From Henningerozyma blattae CBS 6284 (taxonomy: Eukaryota; Ascomycota; Saccharomycetes; Saccharomycetales; Saccharomycetaceae), in assembly GCF_000315915.1 (NCBI RefSeq), contig NC_020185.1:248001-312000 (forward strand): a DNA stretch of 64,000 bases, in the 5' to 3' direction. Each line of letters starts with the position of its first letter. Position 1 is the first letter of the stretch. Positions 7,570 through 61,489 of the stretch are shown piece by piece. The translations under genes and the position numbers were made by a program. The notes beneath the pieces were generated by a model. It had not been told where the DNA came from, ran no database searches, and saw only the letters and a program-made list of their open reading frames with translations.

Positions 7570-8301
7570 ATGTCTTTCGCTAAATTCGTCGCTGCTTTAA
7601 CTGTTGCTGCCTCTGCTTACGCCTTGTCCGCTGAAGACCAAGTCAGTGAAATGCAAATCATCATGGCTGATGTTAACGCTAACTTGGCTGACTACGTTGG
7701 TTTAGTCGCCGACATGGATATCCCAGATGCTTTATTCAACTTATACACTGAAATGGCTACCGCTACTGATGACTCCTACACCAAGGACATGGCTGCTTTG
7801 GACATGAACCAAATCTCCGCTATGTTGACTGTTTTACCATGGTACTCTTCTAGATTGGAAGGTAAGGTTGCTCAATTCGGTGAAGCTGCTGCCACCACTA
7901 AGGCTGAAGAAACCACTACTTCCAAGGTTGAAACTACCTCTTCCAAGGCTCCAGAAACCACCACCAAGACTGAAGAATCTTCCAAGGCCCCAGAAACCAC
8001 CACCAAGACTGAAGAATCTTCCAAGGCCCCAGAAACCACCACCAAGACCGAAGAATCTTCCAAGGCTCCAGAAACCACCACCAAGACCGAAGAATCTTCC
8101 AAGGCTCCAGAAACCACCACCAAGGCTGAAACCACTGAAGCTCCAGCTACCAAGACTTCTCAATCTACTGTTGCTGCTATCTCTCAAATCACTGATGGTC
8201 AAATCCAAGCTACTGTTGAACAACAAACCGAAAACGGTGCCGCTAAGATGGTTGCTGGTTTAGGTGCTGGTGTTGCTGCTGCTGCTGCTTTATTATTATA
8301 A
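7570..8301 (+). CDS. TIR1-like cell-wall mannoprotein (SRP1/TIP1 domain, PIR repeat, GPI anchor)
   Basis: The product is about 243 residues from the ATG at 7570. An upstream in-frame ATG at 7528 would add 14 residues before the signal peptide; I prefer 7570 because it gives a clean secretion signal (MSFAKFVAALTVAASAYA). A SRP1/TIP1 domain follows, with EDQVSEMQIIMADVNANL, TATDDSY and the hallmark PWYSSRL near residue 95. Next comes a Ser/Thr-rich stalk of about five 13-residue units of the SSKAPETTTKTEE type. One PIR motif (ISQITDGQIQATV) follows, and the C-terminus is a GPI signal (ENGAAK, then a small-residue hydrophobic tail ending ALLL). Such proteins are glycosylated, linked to wall glucan through the GPI remnant and possibly also through the PIR Gln, and are induced by anaerobiosis or cold. 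Codon use is that of a highly expressed gene. A close tandem paralogue lies at 12819-13526. Confidence 0.9.
   Translation: MSFAKFVAALTVAASAYALSAEDQVSEMQIIMADVNANLADYVGLVADMDIPDALFNLYTEMATATDDSYTKDMAALDMNQISAMLTVLPWYSSRLEGKVAQFGEAAATTKAEETTTSKVETTSSKAPETTTKTEESSKAPETTTKTEESSKAPETTTKTEESSKAPETTTKTEESSKAPETTTKAETTEAPATKTSQSTVAAISQITDGQIQATVEQQTENGAAKMVAGLGAGVAAAAALLL
7939..8130 (+). repeat. 39-bp in-frame tandem repeat inside the TIR stalk
   Basis: The units start at 7939, 7978, 8017, 8056 and 8095 (the last is partial). Each encodes SSKAPETTTKTEE with only synonymous changes such as GCT/GCC and ACT/ACC. Minisatellites of this sort in yeast wall proteins expand and contract by slippage and recombination and change the stalk length. 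Confidence 0.85.
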
Positions 8302-9988: not shown

Positions 9989-10630
9989 ATGTCTATCACT
10001 AAAGTTGTTTCTTTATTAGCTGCTATTACTGCCATCGCCAACGCTGATGGTGACAGAGAAGCCGCCATGATTTCCATGCAAGTTTACATGAACGATATTG
10101 GTTCTCACATGAAAGAATATTTGTCCATGGAAAAAGCTAATCCAGAACAATCTATTCCACCTGGTGTCTTATCTGCCTATGCTGCCAAGATGACTGCCAA
10201 GGGTGATTCTTATACTTCTTTCTTCTCTGACATTCCAGACTCTTACATTCACTACATGATTACTGGTGTCCCATGGTACTCTACTAGATTGGCTCCAGCT
10301 ATCAGTTCAGCTTTAGCTTCTGCCGGTATTAAAGCCTCCTCTTCTGATAGCTTCAACGCTACCAATGTTACCGTTTCTAGCAACGTTTCCAATTCCACTA
10401 ACAGTTCTTCAAAGAATGATACTTGGAGCAACTCTACCAGTGGTAACTTAAATAGCACCAACAGTTCTGATGCTTCCAACTCTACAACTTTAGCCAACGG
10501 TTCCAACTCTACCAATGGCTCTAACTCTTCCACTACTAACACCGATGGTAAGAAAAATACTAACGGTGCTAACAGAGCTATGGTCGGTGCTGGTGCCGCT
10601 GCTTTAGCTGCTGTTGCTTATATTTTATAG
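9989..10630 (+). CDS. TIP1/TIR-family GPI cell-wall mannoprotein, Asn/Ser-rich stalk
   Basis: The product is 213 residues. It has a signal peptide (MSITKVVSLLAAITAIANA), then a SRP1/TIP1 domain with AAMISMQVYMNDIGSHMKEYLS, KGDSYTSFF and VPWYSTRL. The stalk is very rich in NST and NSS triplets, giving many potential N-glycosylation sites. The C-terminal GPI signal is NGANRAMVGAGAAALAAVAYIL-like. Unlike its two neighbours it has no PIR repeat and no Lys/Glu-rich tandem units, so it is a diverged third member of the local cluster rather than a fresh duplicate. The expected role is as a covalently attached wall mannoprotein, probably hypoxia or stress regulated as in S. cerevisiae TIP1/TIR genes. 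Confidence 0.85.
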   Translation: MSITKVVSLLAAITAIANADGDREAAMISMQVYMNDIGSHMKEYLSMEKANPEQSIPPGVLSAYAAKMTAKGDSYTSFFSDIPDSYIHYMITGVPWYSTRLAPAISSALASAGIKASSSDSFNATNVTVSSNVSNSTNSSSKNDTWSNSTSGNLNSTNSSDASNSTTLANGSNSTNGSNSSTTNTDGKKNTNGANRAMVGAGAAALAAVAYIL

Positions 10631-12818: not shown

Positions 12819-13526
12819 ATGTCTTTTGCTAAATTTGTTACCTTATTGATTGCTGCTGCCACTTCTGCTTATGCCATCTCACCAGAAGACCAAGTTTCTG
12901 AAATGCAAATAATCTTATCTGATGTCAACGACAACTTACAAGATTATGTTGGTTTAGTTGGTTCTATGGATATTCCACAAGCTTTATTTGATTTATATGC
13001 TATTAAAGCCACTGCTACTGATGACTCTTACACCAAGCTAATGGCTCAATTAGATATGAACCAAATCTCTGCTATGTTGACCGTTTTACCATGGTACTCC
13101 TCTAGATTAGAAGCCAAGGTTGCTCAATTTGGTGAAGCTGCTGCTACTACCACTTCTTCCAAGGTTGAAACTATCTCTTCCAAGGTTGGAACTATCTCTT
13201 CCAAGGTTGAAACTGCCTCTTCAAAGGTTGAAACTGCCTCTTCCAAGGTTGAAACTACTATTACTTCATCTATCATAGCTTCATCCAGCAAAACTGAATC
13301 TTCTACTGAAGTTGCCAAGACTTCTACTACCACCATCGCCTCTGAAACCAGCGCTACTCCATCCGGTGTTGCAACTTCTACTTTAAAAGAACAAGTTGCT
13401 GTTGTTTCTCAAATCGGTGACGGTCAAATTCAAGCTACCGTTATCCAACAAACTGAAAACGGTGCCATCAAAAACGCTGTTGGCTTAGGTGCTGGTTTAG
13501 CTGCCGCTGCTGCTCTATTGTTATAA
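12819..13526 (+). CDS. TIR1: TIR1-like cell-wall mannoprotein, paralogue of the gene at 7570
   Basis: The product is 235 residues. The signal peptide MSFAKFVTLLIAAATSAYA and the SRP1/TIP1 domain (EDQVSEMQIILSDVNDNL, MLTVLPWYSSRL) are nearly those of the gene at 7570. A Ser/Thr stalk follows with about five short SSKVET-type units, then a PIR motif [13 protein letters not shown] and a GPI signal (ENGAIKNAVGLGAG and a hydrophobic tail). Both Cwp2 and Tir1 of S. cerevisiae carry the same PIR-plus-GPI ending. The symbol is given by position: in S. cerevisiae TIR1 follows YER010C in this orientation. In S. cerevisiae another family member, TIR3, sits near PDR11, so either name could be argued. It probably responds to low oxygen and cold together with PDR11. 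Confidence 0.85.
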   Translation: MSFAKFVTLLIAAATSAYAISPEDQVSEMQIILSDVNDNLQDYVGLVGSMDIPQALFDLYAIKATATDDSYTKLMAQLDMNQISAMLTVLPWYSSRLEAKVAQFGEAAATTTSSKVETISSKVGTISSKVETASSKVETASSKVETTITSSIIASSSKTESSTEVAKTSTTTIASETSATPSGVATSTLKEQVAVVSQIGDGQIQATVIQQTENGAIKNAVGLGAGLAAAAALLL

Positions 13527-41082: not shown

Positions 41083-43036
41083 TTATTTACCAAACATCTT
41101 CTTCCATGCAGGAGTGTCATCATTGGCCATAGCAGCAACATCGTAGTCAGCGCTTCTTTCAGATGGTGGGACCCAGGCAGCAGACTTCCATGGCAAGACA
41201 CCTTCTTCCCACATAACGTTGACATCTTCTAAAACTAAACCTTTAGTTTCTGGAACAAAGAAAAAGACGTAGAACCAGGCAAAGACTAAACAGCCCAAGA
41301 AGACATAACCGTAGTAAAAGTTAATAGCACCAGTAATAAATGGAGTGAAGAAACCAATACAGAAGTTCCACATTTGGTTGGAGACAGTAGCTAAAGCCAT
41401 ACCCTTGGCCTTAACCTTCAATGGGAAAGATTCAGAAATAATAACAAATGGAACTGGGGCCCAAGAGACAGCAAAACAGAAAATGAAGAAACAGGAGAAA
41501 CAAATCATACAGTTACCGGCACCTTGAGAAGTGACACCACCGTTCTTACCCTTTGGCCATAATCTGGCGACACCAACAGAGGCGAAGACAACCATACAAC
41601 AGGTCATACCAGCGGCACCCCATAATAAACATGTTCTTCTACCAAATCTATCAACTAAGTACAAGGCAACAAAAGTAGAGAAGAAATTAACAACACCGAA
41701 AACAATAGCGGTTTCATAACCATCTTCCAAACCAACAGCCTTGAAAATCAAAGTACCATAGTAGAAGAAATAGTTAGCACCAGTCAATTGTTGCAAAGCT
41801 AATAGCATAATACCGTTGATAACTCTTGGTAGAATCTTGTGTTGAGTATCCAATAAATCACCCCAGGTAGCTTCACCCTCGGCTCTTTCTTTGTCAATAG
41901 CGGCTTGGATTTCATCGGCTTCCATAATAACAGCTGGATCATCTGGAGAAACTTTGTTGGACTTGGCAATGGAGCGCTTGGCATCTTCATATCTACCTTT
42001 TTCGATCAAGAATCTTGGAGATTCTGGGACAAACAACATGGCACCGACTAAAAACAAACACCAGGCAAATTGCAAACCTAGTGGAACTCTCCATTGGGTA
42101 GAGTCATCATATCTCTTAGTACCATAATTAGCACAGTAACCTAAGAAAATACCCATAGTAATCATAAGTTGGTAACAGGAGACCATAGCACCTCTTAAGT
42201 GCTTTGGAGAAACTTCGGAAATCAACATTGGGGATGAGATGGCAATGATACCACAACCTAAACCAGCAACAATTCTACCAATCATGTATTGGTACCAGGC
42301 TTTTACAGAGGCGATTTGAATAACAGTACCGACAATGAAAATGATGGAAGCAACGATAATAGCAATACGACGACCGTACATATCACCTAAACGACCTAAG
42401 AAGAAACAACCGATGGCTTGACCGATGTTGAACATGGAAGTCAACAAACCAGTTCTAACCTTGGACAAATAACGCTTACCAGAGCCACTGGTAGAACCAA
42501 ATCTAGCTAAGAAATCAGTGTGAGATTCGAAACCACCAATGGTACCAGAATCCCAACCGGAAATATAACCACCGAAGGCGACCATGACACACATGATACA
42601 GACGGAAAGGTATGCAGATGCGGGTTTCTTAGGAATATCAATAGCTGGTTCTGGGACTTCACTGTCTTCTTCGCTGTAGTCTTGCTTTAGCTCTTCTGCA
42701 TCTTTGCCAGAGCTAATGGAGTGGACGTCAGTGATGTCGGCAGGAGTATAGGAGCCCTCAATTTCTGTGTGTTGGGAGGCCACGTCAGTCATGTTGAAGT
42801 TATATAATTAGTTGTGTTGCAATAGCAGGCTAGGTAGCTGTGTAGACTAATGAAGTATTCAAAGAGTAGAATCCAAATGTTTCAGCGAGTTGAAAATGTG
42901 CTCAAAAGAGTGCAGTGTTATTGCTGATGATTTATTGGAGTGAATGTGAGACAAGAAACAAGAGAGGTTCAACACAAGTTGGTGGATTACATCGTCCTTA
43001 TATATCTATTTTTTTTCTTAACCTTTTCTTTATCAA
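40714..43036. repeat. Left arm of a large inverted repeat carrying the HXT gene
   Basis: This arm is the reverse complement of 46622-48802 and covers the HXT coding region, about 240 bp of its upstream DNA and about 370 bp of its 3' flank. Identity is very high in coding and flanks alike. It ends abruptly on both sides (within CAGAAA outside and TATCAA inside). The two arms are separated by a 3585-bp non-repeated spacer. Confidence 0.9.
41083..42792 (-). CDS. HXT-family hexose transporter, complete copy
   Basis: This is a 569-residue major facilitator sugar porter. After an acidic cytosolic N-terminus come twelve membrane helices. Family motifs are in order: [15 protein letters not shown] in helix 1, [10 protein letters not shown] between helices 2 and 3, [36 protein letters not shown] ending the first half, [13 protein letters not shown] in helix 7, [16 protein letters not shown], and [18 protein letters not shown] at the end. 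These are the Hxt1-7 type facilitators of glucose uptake in the plasma membrane. Codon use is that of a very highly expressed gene. It is transcribed divergently from its near-identical second copy. I cannot assign a one-to-one HXT number. Confidence 0.95.
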
Positions 43037-46865: not shown

Positions 46866-48434
46866 ATGNNNNNNNNNNNNNNNNNNNNAGAAACCGCATC
46901 TGCATACCTTTCCGTCTGTATCATGTGTGTCATGGTACGCTTCGGTGGTTATATTTCCGTTGGGAGTTCTGGTACCATTGGTGGTTTCGAATCTCACACT
47001 GATTTCTTAGCTAGATTTGGTTCTACCAGTGGCTCTGGTAAGCGTTATTTGTCCAAGGTTAGAACTGGTTTGTTGACTTCCATGTTCAACATCGGTCAAG
47101 CCATCGGTTGTTTCTTCTTAGGTCGTTTAGGTGATATGTACGGTCGTCGTATTGCTATTATCGTTGCTTCCATCATTTTCGTTGTCGGTACTGTTATTCA
47201 AATCGCCTCTGTAAAAGCCTGGTACCAATACATGATTGGTAGAATTGTTGCTGGTTTAGGTTGTGGTATCATTGCCATCTCATCCCCAATGTTGATTTCC
47301 GAAGTTTCTCCAAAGCACTTAAGAGGTGCTATGGTCTCCTGTTACCAACTTATGATTACTATGGGTATTTTCTTAGGTTACTGTGCTAATTATGGTACTA
47401 AGAGATATGATGACTCTACCCAATGGAGAGTTCCATTAGGTTTGCAATTTGCCTGGTGTTTGTTTTTAGTCGGTGCCATGTTGTTTGTCCCAGAATCTCC
47501 AAGATTCTTGATCGAAAAAGGTAGATATGAAGATGCCAAGCGCTCCATTGCCGAGTCCAACAAAGTTTCTCCAGATGATCCAGCTGTTATTATGGAAGCC
47601 GATGAAATCCAAGCCGCTATTGACAAAGAAAGAGCCGAGGGTGAAGCTACCTGGGGTGATTTATTGGATACTCAACACAAGATTCTACCAAGAGTTATCA
47701 ACGGTATTATGTTATTAGCTTTGCAACAATTGACTGGTGCTAACTATTTCTTCTACTATGGTACTTTGATTTTCAAGGCTGTTGGTTTGGAAGATGGTTA
47801 TGAAACCGCTATTGTTTTCGGTGTTGTTAATTTCTTCTCTACTTTTGTTGCCTTGTACTTAGTTGATAGATTCGGTAGAAGAACATGTTTATTATGGGGT
47901 GCCGCTGGTATGACCTGTTGTATGGTTGTCTTCGCCTCTGTTGGTGTCACCAGATTATGGCCAAAGGGTAAGAACGGTGGTGTCACTTCTCAAGGTGCCG
48001 GTAACTGTATGATTTGTTTCTCCTGTTTCTTCATTTTCTGTTTTGCTGTCTCTTGGGCCCCAGTTCCATTTGTTATTATTTCTGAATCTTTCCCATTGAA
48101 GGTTAAGGCCAAGGGTATGGCTTTAGCTACTGTCTCCAACCAAATGTGGAACTTCTGTATTGGTTTCTTCACTCCATTTATTACTGGTGCTATTAACTTT
48201 TACTACGGTTATGTCTTCTTGGGCTGTTTAGTCTTTGCCTGGTTCTACGTCTTTTTCTTTGTTCCAGAAACTAAAGGTTTAGTTTTAGAAGATGTCAACG
48301 TTATGTGGGAAGAAGGTGTCTTGCCATGGAAGTCTGCTGCCTGGGTCCCACCATCTGAAAGAAGCGCTGACTACGATGTTGCTGCTATGGCCAATGATGA
48401 CACTCCTGCATGGAAGAAGATGTTTGGTAAATAA
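46866..48434 (+). CDS. HXT-family hexose transporter, second copy, N-terminus lost in an assembly gap
   Basis: After the ATG at 46866 come 20 N (46869-46888), and then a coding region nearly identical to the gene at 41083-42792. Away from the gap I see only three replacements: I to V in SIIFVVGT, K to E in IAESNK and A to T in GVTRLW. The acidic N-terminal tail of about 55 residues is missing because of the gap. Next to the gap the sequence shows compensating small indels (ETASAY for KPASAY, VRFGG for VAFGG, VGSSGT for GWDSGT), which look like poor sequence quality rather than biology. Helix 1 in other HXT proteins carries the G-W-D-S-G motif, so the displayed VGSSG is suspect. Function is as for the first copy. 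Confidence 0.9.
46869..46888. other. Assembly gap (20 N)
   Basis: Twenty N directly follow the second HXT start codon. Comparison with the first copy suggests about 160 missing bases. The gap falls in a near-perfect inverted repeat, where assembly from short reads is expected to fail. Confidence 0.98.
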
Positions 48435-49895: not shown

Positions 49896-50320
49896 TGTTG
49901 TAAAACCATCTAAGTGCCGTCGCATGTTACGTAATACTTACAAGAAATCAGTACAAGAGAAGCCTCAAGAGAGGGCAGATCAGCTGACCACAGCTGAGAA
50001 ACAACTATTCAGCAGCTGTGGAACATCAACCGTAACCACTGAATCTGTACCCACTTCTGGTTCATCTTGGACACCTATTAGTAAGAATGGCACCCAGGTT
50101 TCAATGAGTGTACCGCATCTTGTAACTATGACCCCAGAACTGTCCAGCTCCAAAGAAGTATATAAGGAGCCTGTATAGATCAATATACTATTATATACTA
50201 TATAGAGAAGAACCAAGCGAAGATATAATAATCTTGTATAATACAACCTGTAACTACTGATCTCAGTGCCATCCGAACTCTGAAGCATTATCCTCATCCT
50301 GGTAGTCTCGTATTACAACA
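49896..50320 (+). repeat. Solo LTR D (425 bp), stacked on LTR E
   Basis: The ends TGTTGTAA and TTACAACA form a perfect 8-bp inverted repeat. The 5-bp target duplication ATTTT is exact (49891-49895 and 50321-50325). A TATA-rich stretch (TATACTATTATATACTATATAG) lies at about 50184-50205. Removing both LTRs places this insertion 16 bp upstream of the tRNA-Gln 5' end, the exact Ty3-type position. No gag-pol remains, so each element has been reduced to a single LTR. An 84-codon frame inside (49924-50178) precedes the TATA stretch and is probably not a gene. Confidence 0.85.
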
Positions 50321-54364: not shown

Positions 54365-56899
54365 CTATATAAAATTGTTTTGGTTTTATTCTGCATGATA
54401 TGAGCAAGATATCTTCGAGTGTTTGTGCTTTATATAGTTGTTATTTTCTTTCTCCAGTATTCCTACATTGTTTTTTTTTGTTGTTGTTTTTGAAACAAAA
54501 AACATATTCTTAGTGTGTATGTGTGTATGTGGCCTTTTAATTTGACTCATCTCATCGCATTAATTTATTTAACTGAGTTGTTTCGTGCAAGGTTCCTGTT
54601 AGCAATCAAACCAGATCCCAAAGACAGACTCCCTATAGTTTTCTTACTAATGTATACCAAGAAAAGAAGTATCTAAATGACCCATTTACCTTCCATTATT
54701 ATTATCCATAAACAAGAAGCGGAAAGTGAACACCGATGCCTGGTCATGAAGCTTTTTTATTAGCGTTGATCATGCACCCTGAATAGTGCCAAATAGCCTC
54801 TTCCTCTGTGGTTAAAATAGTCGCCGCTTTGAGTATAAAATAGTCCCCTCTTCTGGGCATATTTCTTTTTTTCTTTTCTTCGAGAGATTCTTTGTTACAG
54901 CAGAATCATGGAGATACAGCCGTAGCAACAGGCACGATAGTGAAAGGCCGTAGAGACGGAGATCGTGTTCCGCCGGAAGTCGAGCTCCGAGATGTACGGC
55001 ATTCACACGGCATTCTTAGATCGCTGTGGTGTGTATCCCAATAGAGTGAGAAAATAATCTACGCGGGAAAACAACTCCGTCTAGGCGGCTAGATCTGGAA
55101 TGTAGAATGTCTAATGTGGCGCGTTGTGTATTCTGTATCACGTGATTTGTGTTGTAATACAAATTATCAAGATATATTATTGTGGCATTCTAGTGTGTAA
55201 ATTGAGTGAAGATATAATAAGTGTAGCCAGTAAGTTTGTAGTGTCTAGTATCTATAATATTTTTATGCCAAAAGAATAATATTATTCGAGAAGAGATTAT
55301 TATTTTTTGAAAATATTCTTGGCATTTTCAATTCCTAAAATTATTCTATATGATTTTGCTATTTATTAAAATAAGAAAGAAAAAAAAGAGTTGGCTCGTC
55401 ACTTGAGTTATTATTGAGTAAGCTAGTTTATTTAGCCTAATACCGCGACTTGGGATAGGGTTAGGGTTTATTTTAAAAGTATTGTACGTAATAAGTTTAA
55501 AAAAATATTCTTTTTGAACTACTCTACTTTGTGTTGATGTTAGTATAGGACTTAAGAATAGACTTCCTTTTCAGCATCCTAAAATTTACATTATAAAAAT
55601 TTGAGAGCCTATTGTATGGCTTTAAGCAAAGAAAGTACGTAAAACAATTAAAAGAATATACTTGTATTATACCTTATTCTAAACATAGAAAATAATTAAA
55701 AGTACCATAGTCTTCACACATAAATAGTAATTTTTTTTTCTCTACAATATTAATACGGGTAAGCAACAATTGTGTTTTGAGATTTGCAACTATTGTGGCA
55801 CCTCGGTTTTGTGCCCCCTCTTTAAATCCATACTCAGTATCTGTTTGTCTTCATTATAGTAAATATACAAGAGGTAAATAGAGTTCTTCATTAATAGAAT
55901 AACATAACTATGTATTGTTATTTTTTAAAAAATATTTATAGACATATGTACTTTTTATGATGATGGTAATGTGAAGTCTAGTTTATAATAGACCAGTCTT
56001 CGAATATATATATTTGATATAAAATAACAATAGAACTGAAAAGGATATGATTCCAACCTTATACTTTTTGGTGAATATTCGCACAACCTTTTTCTTTTAG
56101 AAACAAGATTTTAATTTAAATATCTATTTTTTTATTTCAATTCTATTCACCCAGAGTTATAGAAAAGGGAAATCCATGTTATTCATTGTAATAGAAACCA
56201 TTAGAAATAATATCAAAACTATTGGTAATTTAATAAATATAATAGGAAATTAATCACATTTGGAAAGTAGATTAGTATTGATTCTTAACTATTATTCTCA
56301 ATTTATGGGTAACAGTATTCAGCTTTTTGGTTAAACTTGTTTGGAGTTAGACCTCAATAAATATTTTATATTCCATCGCAAGTATAAAGAAGAATTTAGA
56401 AACGCAGAAATTAATGAAATTTATAGGTTGATATTTTTTGAAACGATCTAAAATTTTATCAGGAAAATAATATCAGAGATTATCTTGTATGCATCAAAAG
56501 GTGTTAGTTTAAATAGCTATTACATTTCTCCTTTGGAATAAAATTTTTGTGCCTTTTTCTTTTCCTATATTTCTTTTTGCTTTATTGGGTATTTGATATT
56601 TTTGAGGTTTTGAGAATTCCGTGTATTTACCTAATTCGGTAAATTACATGGATTACAAAAATTAAACTCTGTGTATAGAAGATGAAACATGAATAACAGT
56701 CTCATACTGTAATAACATATGTTTCATACTAAATTAAACAAAAATATCTCTGTAATTAAATTTAAATAGTTTTTAAAAATATTAAAGTATAAAAGGTAAA
56801 CGGTTTATAGAATAAAACGATGTAACTTATTAACAATTTTTAAAGGATAAAATCAACAAAACAAAAACTATTCAATCATTTAAAACCATATACTTCAAA
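54365..56899. other. Upstream region of MCH5 and of the pheromone gene (2.5 kb)
   Basis: A GC-richer patch at about 54770-55150 contains a CACGTG within TATCACGTGAT near 55138-55146. No long frame runs through it. From 55200 on the DNA is very AT-rich. The right end holds the alpha2-Mcm1 operator (56620-56651) and a TATA-like AGTATAAAAGG at about 56787-56797, for the a-factor gene. A CENP-type CDEIII (TTTCCGAA context) does not follow the CACGTG, so I do not call a centromere. Confidence 0.5.
56620..56651. promoter_or_regulatory. alpha2-Mcm1-alpha2 operator of an a-specific gene
   Basis: The site has the full bipartite layout: alpha2 half-site CGTGTATTTA (56620-56629), a central Mcm1 site CCTAATTCGG (56630-56639), then TAAATTACATGG (56640-56651) with the inverted alpha2 half-site. 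Spacing is identical to the S. cerevisiae STE2 operator. It lies about 250 bp upstream of the a-factor start codon. Known function: Mcm1 activates in a cells, and alpha2 with Tup1/Ssn6 represses in alpha and diploid cells. Confidence 0.93.
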
Positions 56900-57004
56900 A
56901 TGCAATCAACTACCCAAGCAACTCAAAAAGATAACTCTTCTGAAAACAAAGATAATTATATTGTTCCAGGTTTATTTTGGGATCCTGCTTGTATTATCGC
57001 TTAA
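56900..57004 (+). CDS. MFA2: a-factor mating pheromone precursor
   Basis: The 34-codon gene is too short for usual ORF cut-offs. The precursor starts MQSTTQATQKDNSSENKDN and ends with the mature peptide YIVPGLFWDPAC followed by IIA. The C-terminal CIIA is a CaaX box, so the Cys is farnesylated, the last three residues are removed and the Cys is carboxyl-methylated. Amino-terminal cleavage should occur after the Asn, as in S. cerevisiae (...KKDN/YIIKGVFWDPAC), and export is by the ABC transporter Ste6. The pro-region is most like S. cerevisiae MFA2 (TQATQKDKSSEKKDN). Compared with S. cerevisiae a-factor it has V for I at position 3, P for K at 4 and L for V at 6 (Mfa2 also has L). The upstream alpha2-Mcm1 operator confirms a-specific control. 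Confidence 0.96.
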   Translation: MQSTTQATQKDNSSENKDNYIVPGLFWDPACIIA

Positions 57005-58003: not shown

Positions 58004-58121
58004 TTAATCATCGTCATCATCACTAACGTCAATATCACTCAACTCTTCGCTTATCCCACCTTCCTCCAATTCTGAATCGCTCAAGTCTCCCCTTATCTTA
58101 TCCTTATTTTTCCTGCCTTCC

Positions 58122-58162
<41 letters not shown>

Positions 58163-58784
58163 TTCCTCTTCATCTTCCTCCTCTTCTTTACGTCCAAACA
58201 GTTTCTCATATTTCTCTGGAGTAGCATATTTATCGATATATTCTTTAATTTTTTCTTCATATAATTTCTTATCACGTAATTGTAGTCCTGCAGCTTCATT
58301 ATTTAAAGGATCCGTCCCATTTGGCTCCTTTAAAAGACCCGGTATCATCCATTCTACAATATTGATCAAATCATATAAAGGTGACCAAGTAGAATTGATA
58401 ACATCTAAACAGATTGATCCTGATGCAATATCGATATTTGGATGGAATATTTTATTGACAAACCCAATACTTGGTGATTTATATGGATAATTGTCCGGTA
58501 ATTCCACATGCAATCTCCAGACCCCCTTTTCATAAGGAGTTTCATCCGGACCAAAAAATTTTATAAAAAATTCTTGCATGTTATCATTAACTAGCTCTAC
58601 ATCATGGTTACTCATCAGTAACTTCATAACGTCTGTTTCAATTCTTCTCTTGGAGTTACTAATCGGAAAAAAAAATAAAATTCTCAATAGAACATCCTGA
58701 ATGTCTTCTTGATTGTCGATCATTGTTAGTAAAGTTGCTTAAATCAATTGTAATAAATATTGTGGTAATAAATGCATACCTCAT
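58004..58784 (-). CDS. UBC8: Ubiquitin-conjugating enzyme E2, Ubc8; two exons
   Basis: The coding exons are 58004-58658 and 58780-58784 on the minus strand, with an intron at 58659-58779 (121 nt). Exon 1 is just ATGAG. The intron begins GTATGC, has a perfect branch site TACTAAC, and ends GATTAG. Splicing gives [12 protein letters not shown], matching S. cerevisiae [12 protein letters not shown]. Without splicing the frame would start with an unrelated intron-encoded [11 protein letters not shown]. The 219-residue product (S. cerevisiae 218) has the E2 core, with [19 protein letters not shown] holding catalytic Cys85, then [16 protein letters not shown] very acidic tail follows, including a run of 13-15 Asp encoded by an ATC/GAT repeat, and ends in [12 protein letters not shown]. 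Ubc8 works with the GID ligase in glucose-induced degradation of fructose-1,6-bisphosphatase. Confidence 0.96.
58659..58779 (-). other. UBC8 spliceosomal intron
   Basis: On the minus strand: donor GTATGC directly after ATGAG, branch site TACTAAC at 58724-58730, then a T-run and acceptor TAG. At 121 nt it is almost the size of the S. cerevisiae UBC8 intron and in the same place. Confidence 0.93.
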
Positions 58785-60832: not shown

Positions 60833-61489
60833 ATGGCTGCTCAATCTACCACTGCTCAATTATTAGCAAAACACTCTAATATCTTCAAAAAAGCCACTGA
60901 ACATGAATTGACTAAACAGTTATGTAAAGGTACTTTAGCAGACAGAGCCTTATACATTTACTTGGCTCAAGATCTACAATTTTTTGAAACTGGACTAAGA
61001 ACCATTTGTAAAACCACTGCAAAGGCCCCTGAAGTTGACAGTTTATTAACTTTAGCTAAGAAAATTGGATTTTTTGCTAACGATGAAAACACTTACTTCC
61101 GTGATTGTTTGGAATTACTAGCACCTGCCATGACTAAGGAAGAAATTGAATTCTATAACAATAATGAAGTTGCCTCAGTTAAACAATATATTGCTTATTT
61201 AAATAAATTGACTAATGACAACTCTATAGAATATCCACAATTGATCACTTACTTATGGGTGGCTGAACAAATCTATTTAGAATGGGCTCATAATTTACCA
61301 AAGGCTGAAAACCTGCATTGGAAGTATCAAACTTGGATTGATTTGCATGATGGTAAACATTTCATAGATTGGTGTGACTTCTTAAAAGCCGAAGTCGATA
61401 AATACCCAATTGAAAAAGTTGAAGAAACTTTTGTAGAAGTTACTAGTTTGGAATTCGAATTTTTCGAATCTTGTTTTAACGCTAAATAA
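60833..61489 (+). CDS. PET18: Pet18, TENA/THI-4 family protein
   Basis: The product is 218 residues (S. cerevisiae 215). It is an all-helical TENA/THI-4 fold: [26 protein letters not shown] at the start, then [34 protein letters not shown]-type helix [20 protein letters not shown], a long variable helix, and the C-terminal half [30 protein letters not shown]. The family includes thiaminase II and domains in Thi20/21, but yeast Pet18 has no proven activity. I do not see the catalytic Cys of bacterial TenA (C135 context), so enzyme function is uncertain. Its position beside MAK31 and HTL1 confirms orthology. Confidence 0.95.

Follow-up and report, generated by a model that had tools for sequence, protein, structure and literature searches.

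A very probably functional a-factor gene of the yeast Henningerozyma blattae, with four sister copies elsewhere in the genome

The locus and its predicted product

The window analysed here is a stretch of 64,000 nucleotides from Henningerozyma blattae CBS 6284. It contains a short gene of the MFA type, encoding a precursor of the mating pheromone a-factor, with a putative control region upstream and several other protein-coding genes downstream. The features needed below are as follows, in window coordinates:

56622..56648, + strand: alpha2-Mcm1-alpha2-like operator TGTATTTACCTAATTCGGTAAATTACA, with its Mcm1 box at 56630-56639, from a pattern scan
56788..56795, + strand: TATA-box-like element TATAAAAG, a consensus match only, starting 112 bp before the ATG
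56900..57004, + strand: MFA (a-factor precursor) gene, 34 codons and a stop, matching PF17317 over its full length at 85.1 bits
56957..56992, + strand: coding stretch for the dodecapeptide YIVPGLFWDPAC, the predicted mature pheromone, with boundaries set by analogy with S. cerevisiae a-factor and by conservation
56990..57001, + strand: CaaX box CIIA, from translation and conservation; removal of aaX would follow farnesylation
58004..58723, - strand: ubiquitin-conjugating enzyme with an acidic tail (PF00179)
60833..61489, + strand: TENA/THI-4 family protein (Pfam), with a homologue beside the MFA gene on contig C10

The sequence-only reading had described a 34-codon precursor, and translation gives exactly that: MQSTTQATQKDNSSENKDNYIVPGLFWDPACIIA, then a stop, with the CaaX box immediately 5' of it. 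In a Pfam search, residues 1-34 align with positions 1-34 of the PF17317 (MFA1_2) profile at 85.1 bits and an E of 2.6e-24, the curated cut-off being 25 bits. The S. cerevisiae MFA1 and MFA2 products score 66.4 and 76.8 bits, respectively. The likeness to these two precursors extends to their length, the MQ start, the SSE-K-DN block before the mature peptide, the pattern YI-x-x-G-[VL]-FWDPAC and the CaaX end. The S. cerevisiae pheromone is cleaved at an Asn-Tyr bond and ends in a farnesylated cysteine. If the window product were processed in the same way, the farnesylated methyl ester would have a computed [M+H]+ of 1598.869 for the YIVPG form encoded here, and of 1612.885 for the YIIPG form encoded by some of the sister genes. 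A comparison of the precursor with solved structures gave no match at E up to 10.

A dispersed family of five genes

The search for a second MFA copy turned up four further intact ones. The genome searched comprises 14.04 Mb in 10 contigs, and protein and Pfam searches, whose counts are lower bounds, yield the same set of five genes, only five candidates having arisen in each:

L001, C1:304900 (the window gene): Val3 peptide YIVPGLFWDPAC, CIIA
L002, C2:1161017: Ile3 peptide YIIPGLFWDPAC, CIIA
L003, C10:109606: Val3 peptide YIVPGLFWDPAC, CIIV
L004, C1:425269: Ile3 peptide YIIPGLFWDPAC, CIIV
L005, C1:573085: Ile3 peptide YIIPGLFWDPAC, CIIV

All five exceed the PF17317 cut-off over the full length of the profile. 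Two genes encode the Val3 peptide and three the Ile3 peptide, and the CaaX box is CIIA in two and CIIV in three. A TATA-like match lies within 300 bp upstream of every copy except L002 in a consensus scan. One of the sisters on the window's contig is identical, letter for letter, to TBLA_0A02390, which is annotated as a hypothetical protein. Thus the earlier statement that genes this short are missed by common open-reading-frame thresholds is partly wrong, as this copy had been annotated, if under an uninformative name. A protein-collection search with a 56-residue frame matched only the window's own product and TBLA_0A02390, and no a-factor of another yeast.

Across the 12 codon columns of the mature peptide, eight vary only synonymously among the five copies, three are invariant and one alternates between Ile and Val. 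Pairwise dN is 0.04-0.15 and dS 0.48-3.6, values that are noisy over 34 codons. Because the columns vary mostly synonymously and dN lies below dS, the coding sequences indicate that the mature peptide is held by purifying selection while silent sites drift. Flanking DNA is similar only between L004 and L005, over 120 bp upstream at 80% identity (blastn, E 0.01).

By Pfam, the window gene is followed downstream by the ubiquitin-conjugating enzyme, an LSM protein and the TENA/THI-4 protein, which we take to be UBC8-like, MAK31 and PET18-like, respectively. Downstream of the C10 gene lies a relative of the window's TENA/THI-4 protein, with 72% identity to it, which on its own scores 20.6 bits, just below the Pfam cut-off of 22. 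The relative orientation is the same at both loci, and the two surroundings fit a duplicated segment such as whole-genome duplication would leave. The three remaining loci have unrelated neighbours: Sec23 and a family-2 glycosyltransferase at one; an OPT transporter together with a HAT protein of the PRP39 type at another; a cyclin, Rot1 and Vps27 at the last. Naumovozyma castellii likewise has five MFA genes, and PMC3161974 describes them as a genome-duplication pair plus three at sites unique among the species studied, MFA genes apparently having a high rate of duplication or transposition.

Other repeated material was noted by eye. The window carries a near-identical, inverted pair of sugar-transporter-type genes at 41083-42792 (-) and 46866-48434 (+), the latter opening with unread bases, so that its start is uncertain. 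A frame of 103-105 residues recurs, nearly unchanged, at three places (window 49980-50297 on the - strand, L049:2767-3078 and L047:5469-5780); the window copy lies about 0.5 kb from a tRNA-Gln gene, and the frame could belong to a mobile element, for instance an LTR. Three related small Ser/Thr-rich proteins with signal-like starts, resembling TIR/PAU mannoproteins, are encoded at 7570-8301, 9989-10630 and 12819-13526.

Operator-like upstream sites and predicted cell-type control

The putative operator TGTATTTACCTAATTCGGTAAATTACA lies 251 bp upstream of the window gene and was called against the alpha2-Mcm1-alpha2 consensus. Written as the pattern TGTNNNTNCCNNATNNGGNNANNNACA, with the L001 sequence already in view, it has two exact matches in the 14.04-Mb genome, one before the window MFA gene and the other upstream of STE2, against none for the reversed control. 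Allowing one mismatch returns nine rows at eight distinct places (reversed control, one): these are MFA, STE2, AGA2 (identified by Pfam) and five with neighbouring frames in which no link to mating was seen. An ungapped score over 14 positions gives 14 for L001, 12 for L002 and L003, and 10 for L004 and L005.

A second score allowed 3-5 bases between the half-sites and the Mcm1 box, with a maximum of 13. It reaches 12 or 13 within 500 bp of all five MFA genes, where the window copy, L003 and L005 tie and the sites at L002 and L004 each depart once from the Mcm1 box; it reaches 13 upstream of both STE2 and AGA2. The site before STE6 is weaker (11.0), with an imperfect half-site. Dinucleotide shuffles attained the observed score at most once in 1000 per locus for the MFA genes, STE2 and AGA2, counts that are optimistic since the score was designed with knowledge of the L001 site and of the results of the ungapped scan. 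One strand of a further 133 kb of this genome gave a score of 12 three times and never 13, a rate slightly too high as the sample includes two loci (L013 and L015) fetched as pattern matches. In S. cerevisiae, according to PMC6405483, alpha2 with Mcm1 is the repressor of a-specific genes. Our literature search on a-specific operators found nothing.

A further alpha2-Mcm1-like site, TGTAATTTTCCATATTAGGAAAGTAACA as it reads along the strand of the gene, was seen on C3 at L045:4821-4848, with a score of 12. It lies some 230-250 bp before the ATG (4593, - strand) of an M16 protease of the size expected of Axl1; in the other sequence scanned, sites of this score are spaced about 45 kb apart on average. 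AXL1 is haploid-specific in S. cerevisiae. If the L045 site is real, AXL1 would be an a-specific gene in H. blattae, unlike its S. cerevisiae counterpart.

The existence of several copies raises the question of which is used. Since four other copies exist, another MFA gene as the source of the only detected pheromone is a live possibility, and the window copy could be a relic or minor copy, with the pheromone in use drawn mainly from the others in the Ile3 form that three of the five encode. Against this, the window copy alone among the five has the exact operator pattern upstream, although L003 and L005 equal it on the spacing-tolerant score; it also has a TATA-like box, its reading frame is intact and it matches the Pfam profile from end to end. 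We regard such a demotion of the window gene as improbable.

Proline 4, the pathway and the proposed explanation

The S. cerevisiae a-factor, YIIKGVFWDPAC, has Lys at position 4. In contrast, all five H. blattae copies have Pro there, together with Val or Ile at position 3 and CIIA or CIIV in place of CVIA, and there are five genes rather than two. The a-factor of Kluyveromyces lactis has Pro4 too, while differing in much of the remaining mature peptide; text searches of the literature with peptide strings gave no confirmation of this Pro4. The string YIIKGVFWDPAC itself occurs in PMC7035247. The main text of a yeast prenylation paper contains neither CIIA nor CIIV (PMC9231725), and a literature search found no paper joining 'Tetrapisispora blattae' and 'a-factor'.

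In the PF17317 column for mature position 4, Pro falls between Lys and Ala, 1.4 bits below the former and 1.3 bits above the latter; replacing the first Ile of CIIA with Val adds 1.5 bits. As these differences are small, both Pro4 and CIIA are, measured against the profile, mild features. The pheromone had been called unusual, a description that holds against S. cerevisiae but not within this genome, where Pro4 is universal, nor against a tolerant profile.

The same reading had gone further, suggesting that Pro4 and CIIA, as private changes, could modify recognition by Ste3 or Ste6 and contribute to mating isolation. The Lys of the S. cerevisiae peptide speaks for such an effect, as does the report in PMC7243462 that the ability of Ste6 orthologues to restore mating in S. 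cerevisiae roughly follows their phylogenetic distance. However, Pro4 is the sole state found here, common to all five copies, and the Pfam profile tolerates it. It is also shared with K. lactis, and CIIA instead of CVIA should not affect Ste3: export follows the removal of the aaX tail, and the change from Val to Ile there should leave the exported peptide as it was. The proposal gained no support from these results and appears very unlikely. A chance open frame resembling a-factor was rejected as virtually impossible in view of the profile match (E 2.6e-24), the four sisters with a constrained peptide and the cell-type operator upstream.

The survey of pathway genes covered STE3, the ABCB exporters and, for processing, part of the enzyme set: ICMT, the Ste24-type protease and the M16 proteases. 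The genome has one frame for the Ste3 receptor, which gave no match to solved structures at E up to 0.001. A full-length ABCB exporter of 1296 residues has the multidrug resistance protein pgp-1 (4f4c) as its first-listed solved relative and the a-factor exporter Ste6 (7qkr) as its second. There is one ICMT and one Ste24-type protease domain. Three M16 proteases are present, one of them, at 1202 residues, of a size that fits Axl1. An ABC transporter at G000:C1:1666435-1669147 has an apparently split frame, the first of its matched pieces being interrupted by a TAA.

That the window holds a CaaX-processed a-factor gene, as originally proposed, is strongly supported at the level of sequence by the five PF17317 matches and the upstream operators. 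We are nearly certain that it belongs to a dispersed set of five H. blattae MFA genes, very probably functional, that would work as follows. In alpha cells, alpha2 and Mcm1 would repress the gene, and in a cells Mcm1 would drive it. Cys31 of the 34-residue precursor would be farnesylated, the aaX tail then removed by Ste24 or Rce1, and the C terminus methylated by Ste14. Ste24 would make the first cut in the N-terminal extension and Axl1 the second, between Asn19 and Tyr20, both sites being placed by analogy. Ste6 would export the mature a-factor, and alpha cells would sense it through Ste3. Pro4 would be the normal residue of the species, and the extra copies would serve mainly as dosage.

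Weak cross-species signalling by the H. blattae a-factor is compatible with everything found here. More speculatively, a cells may use their five promoters to secrete both the Val3 and Ile3 isoforms, which differ by 14 Da, and Pro4 together with a Ste3 of its own preference may make for poor signalling to S. cerevisiae and other species with Lys4; we consider this unlikely.

The window gene is in all likelihood an ordinary, very probably working a-specific a-factor gene, belonging to a set that is new and a kind that is known. H. blattae gains a five-gene a-factor set, at least one member of which had been annotated only as a hypothetical protein. The set opens no new question of pheromone chemistry. 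It does supply, with STE2, AGA2 and, more weakly, STE6, a candidate set of a-specific operators that would be of use in comparisons of cell-type circuits following the yeast genome duplication.
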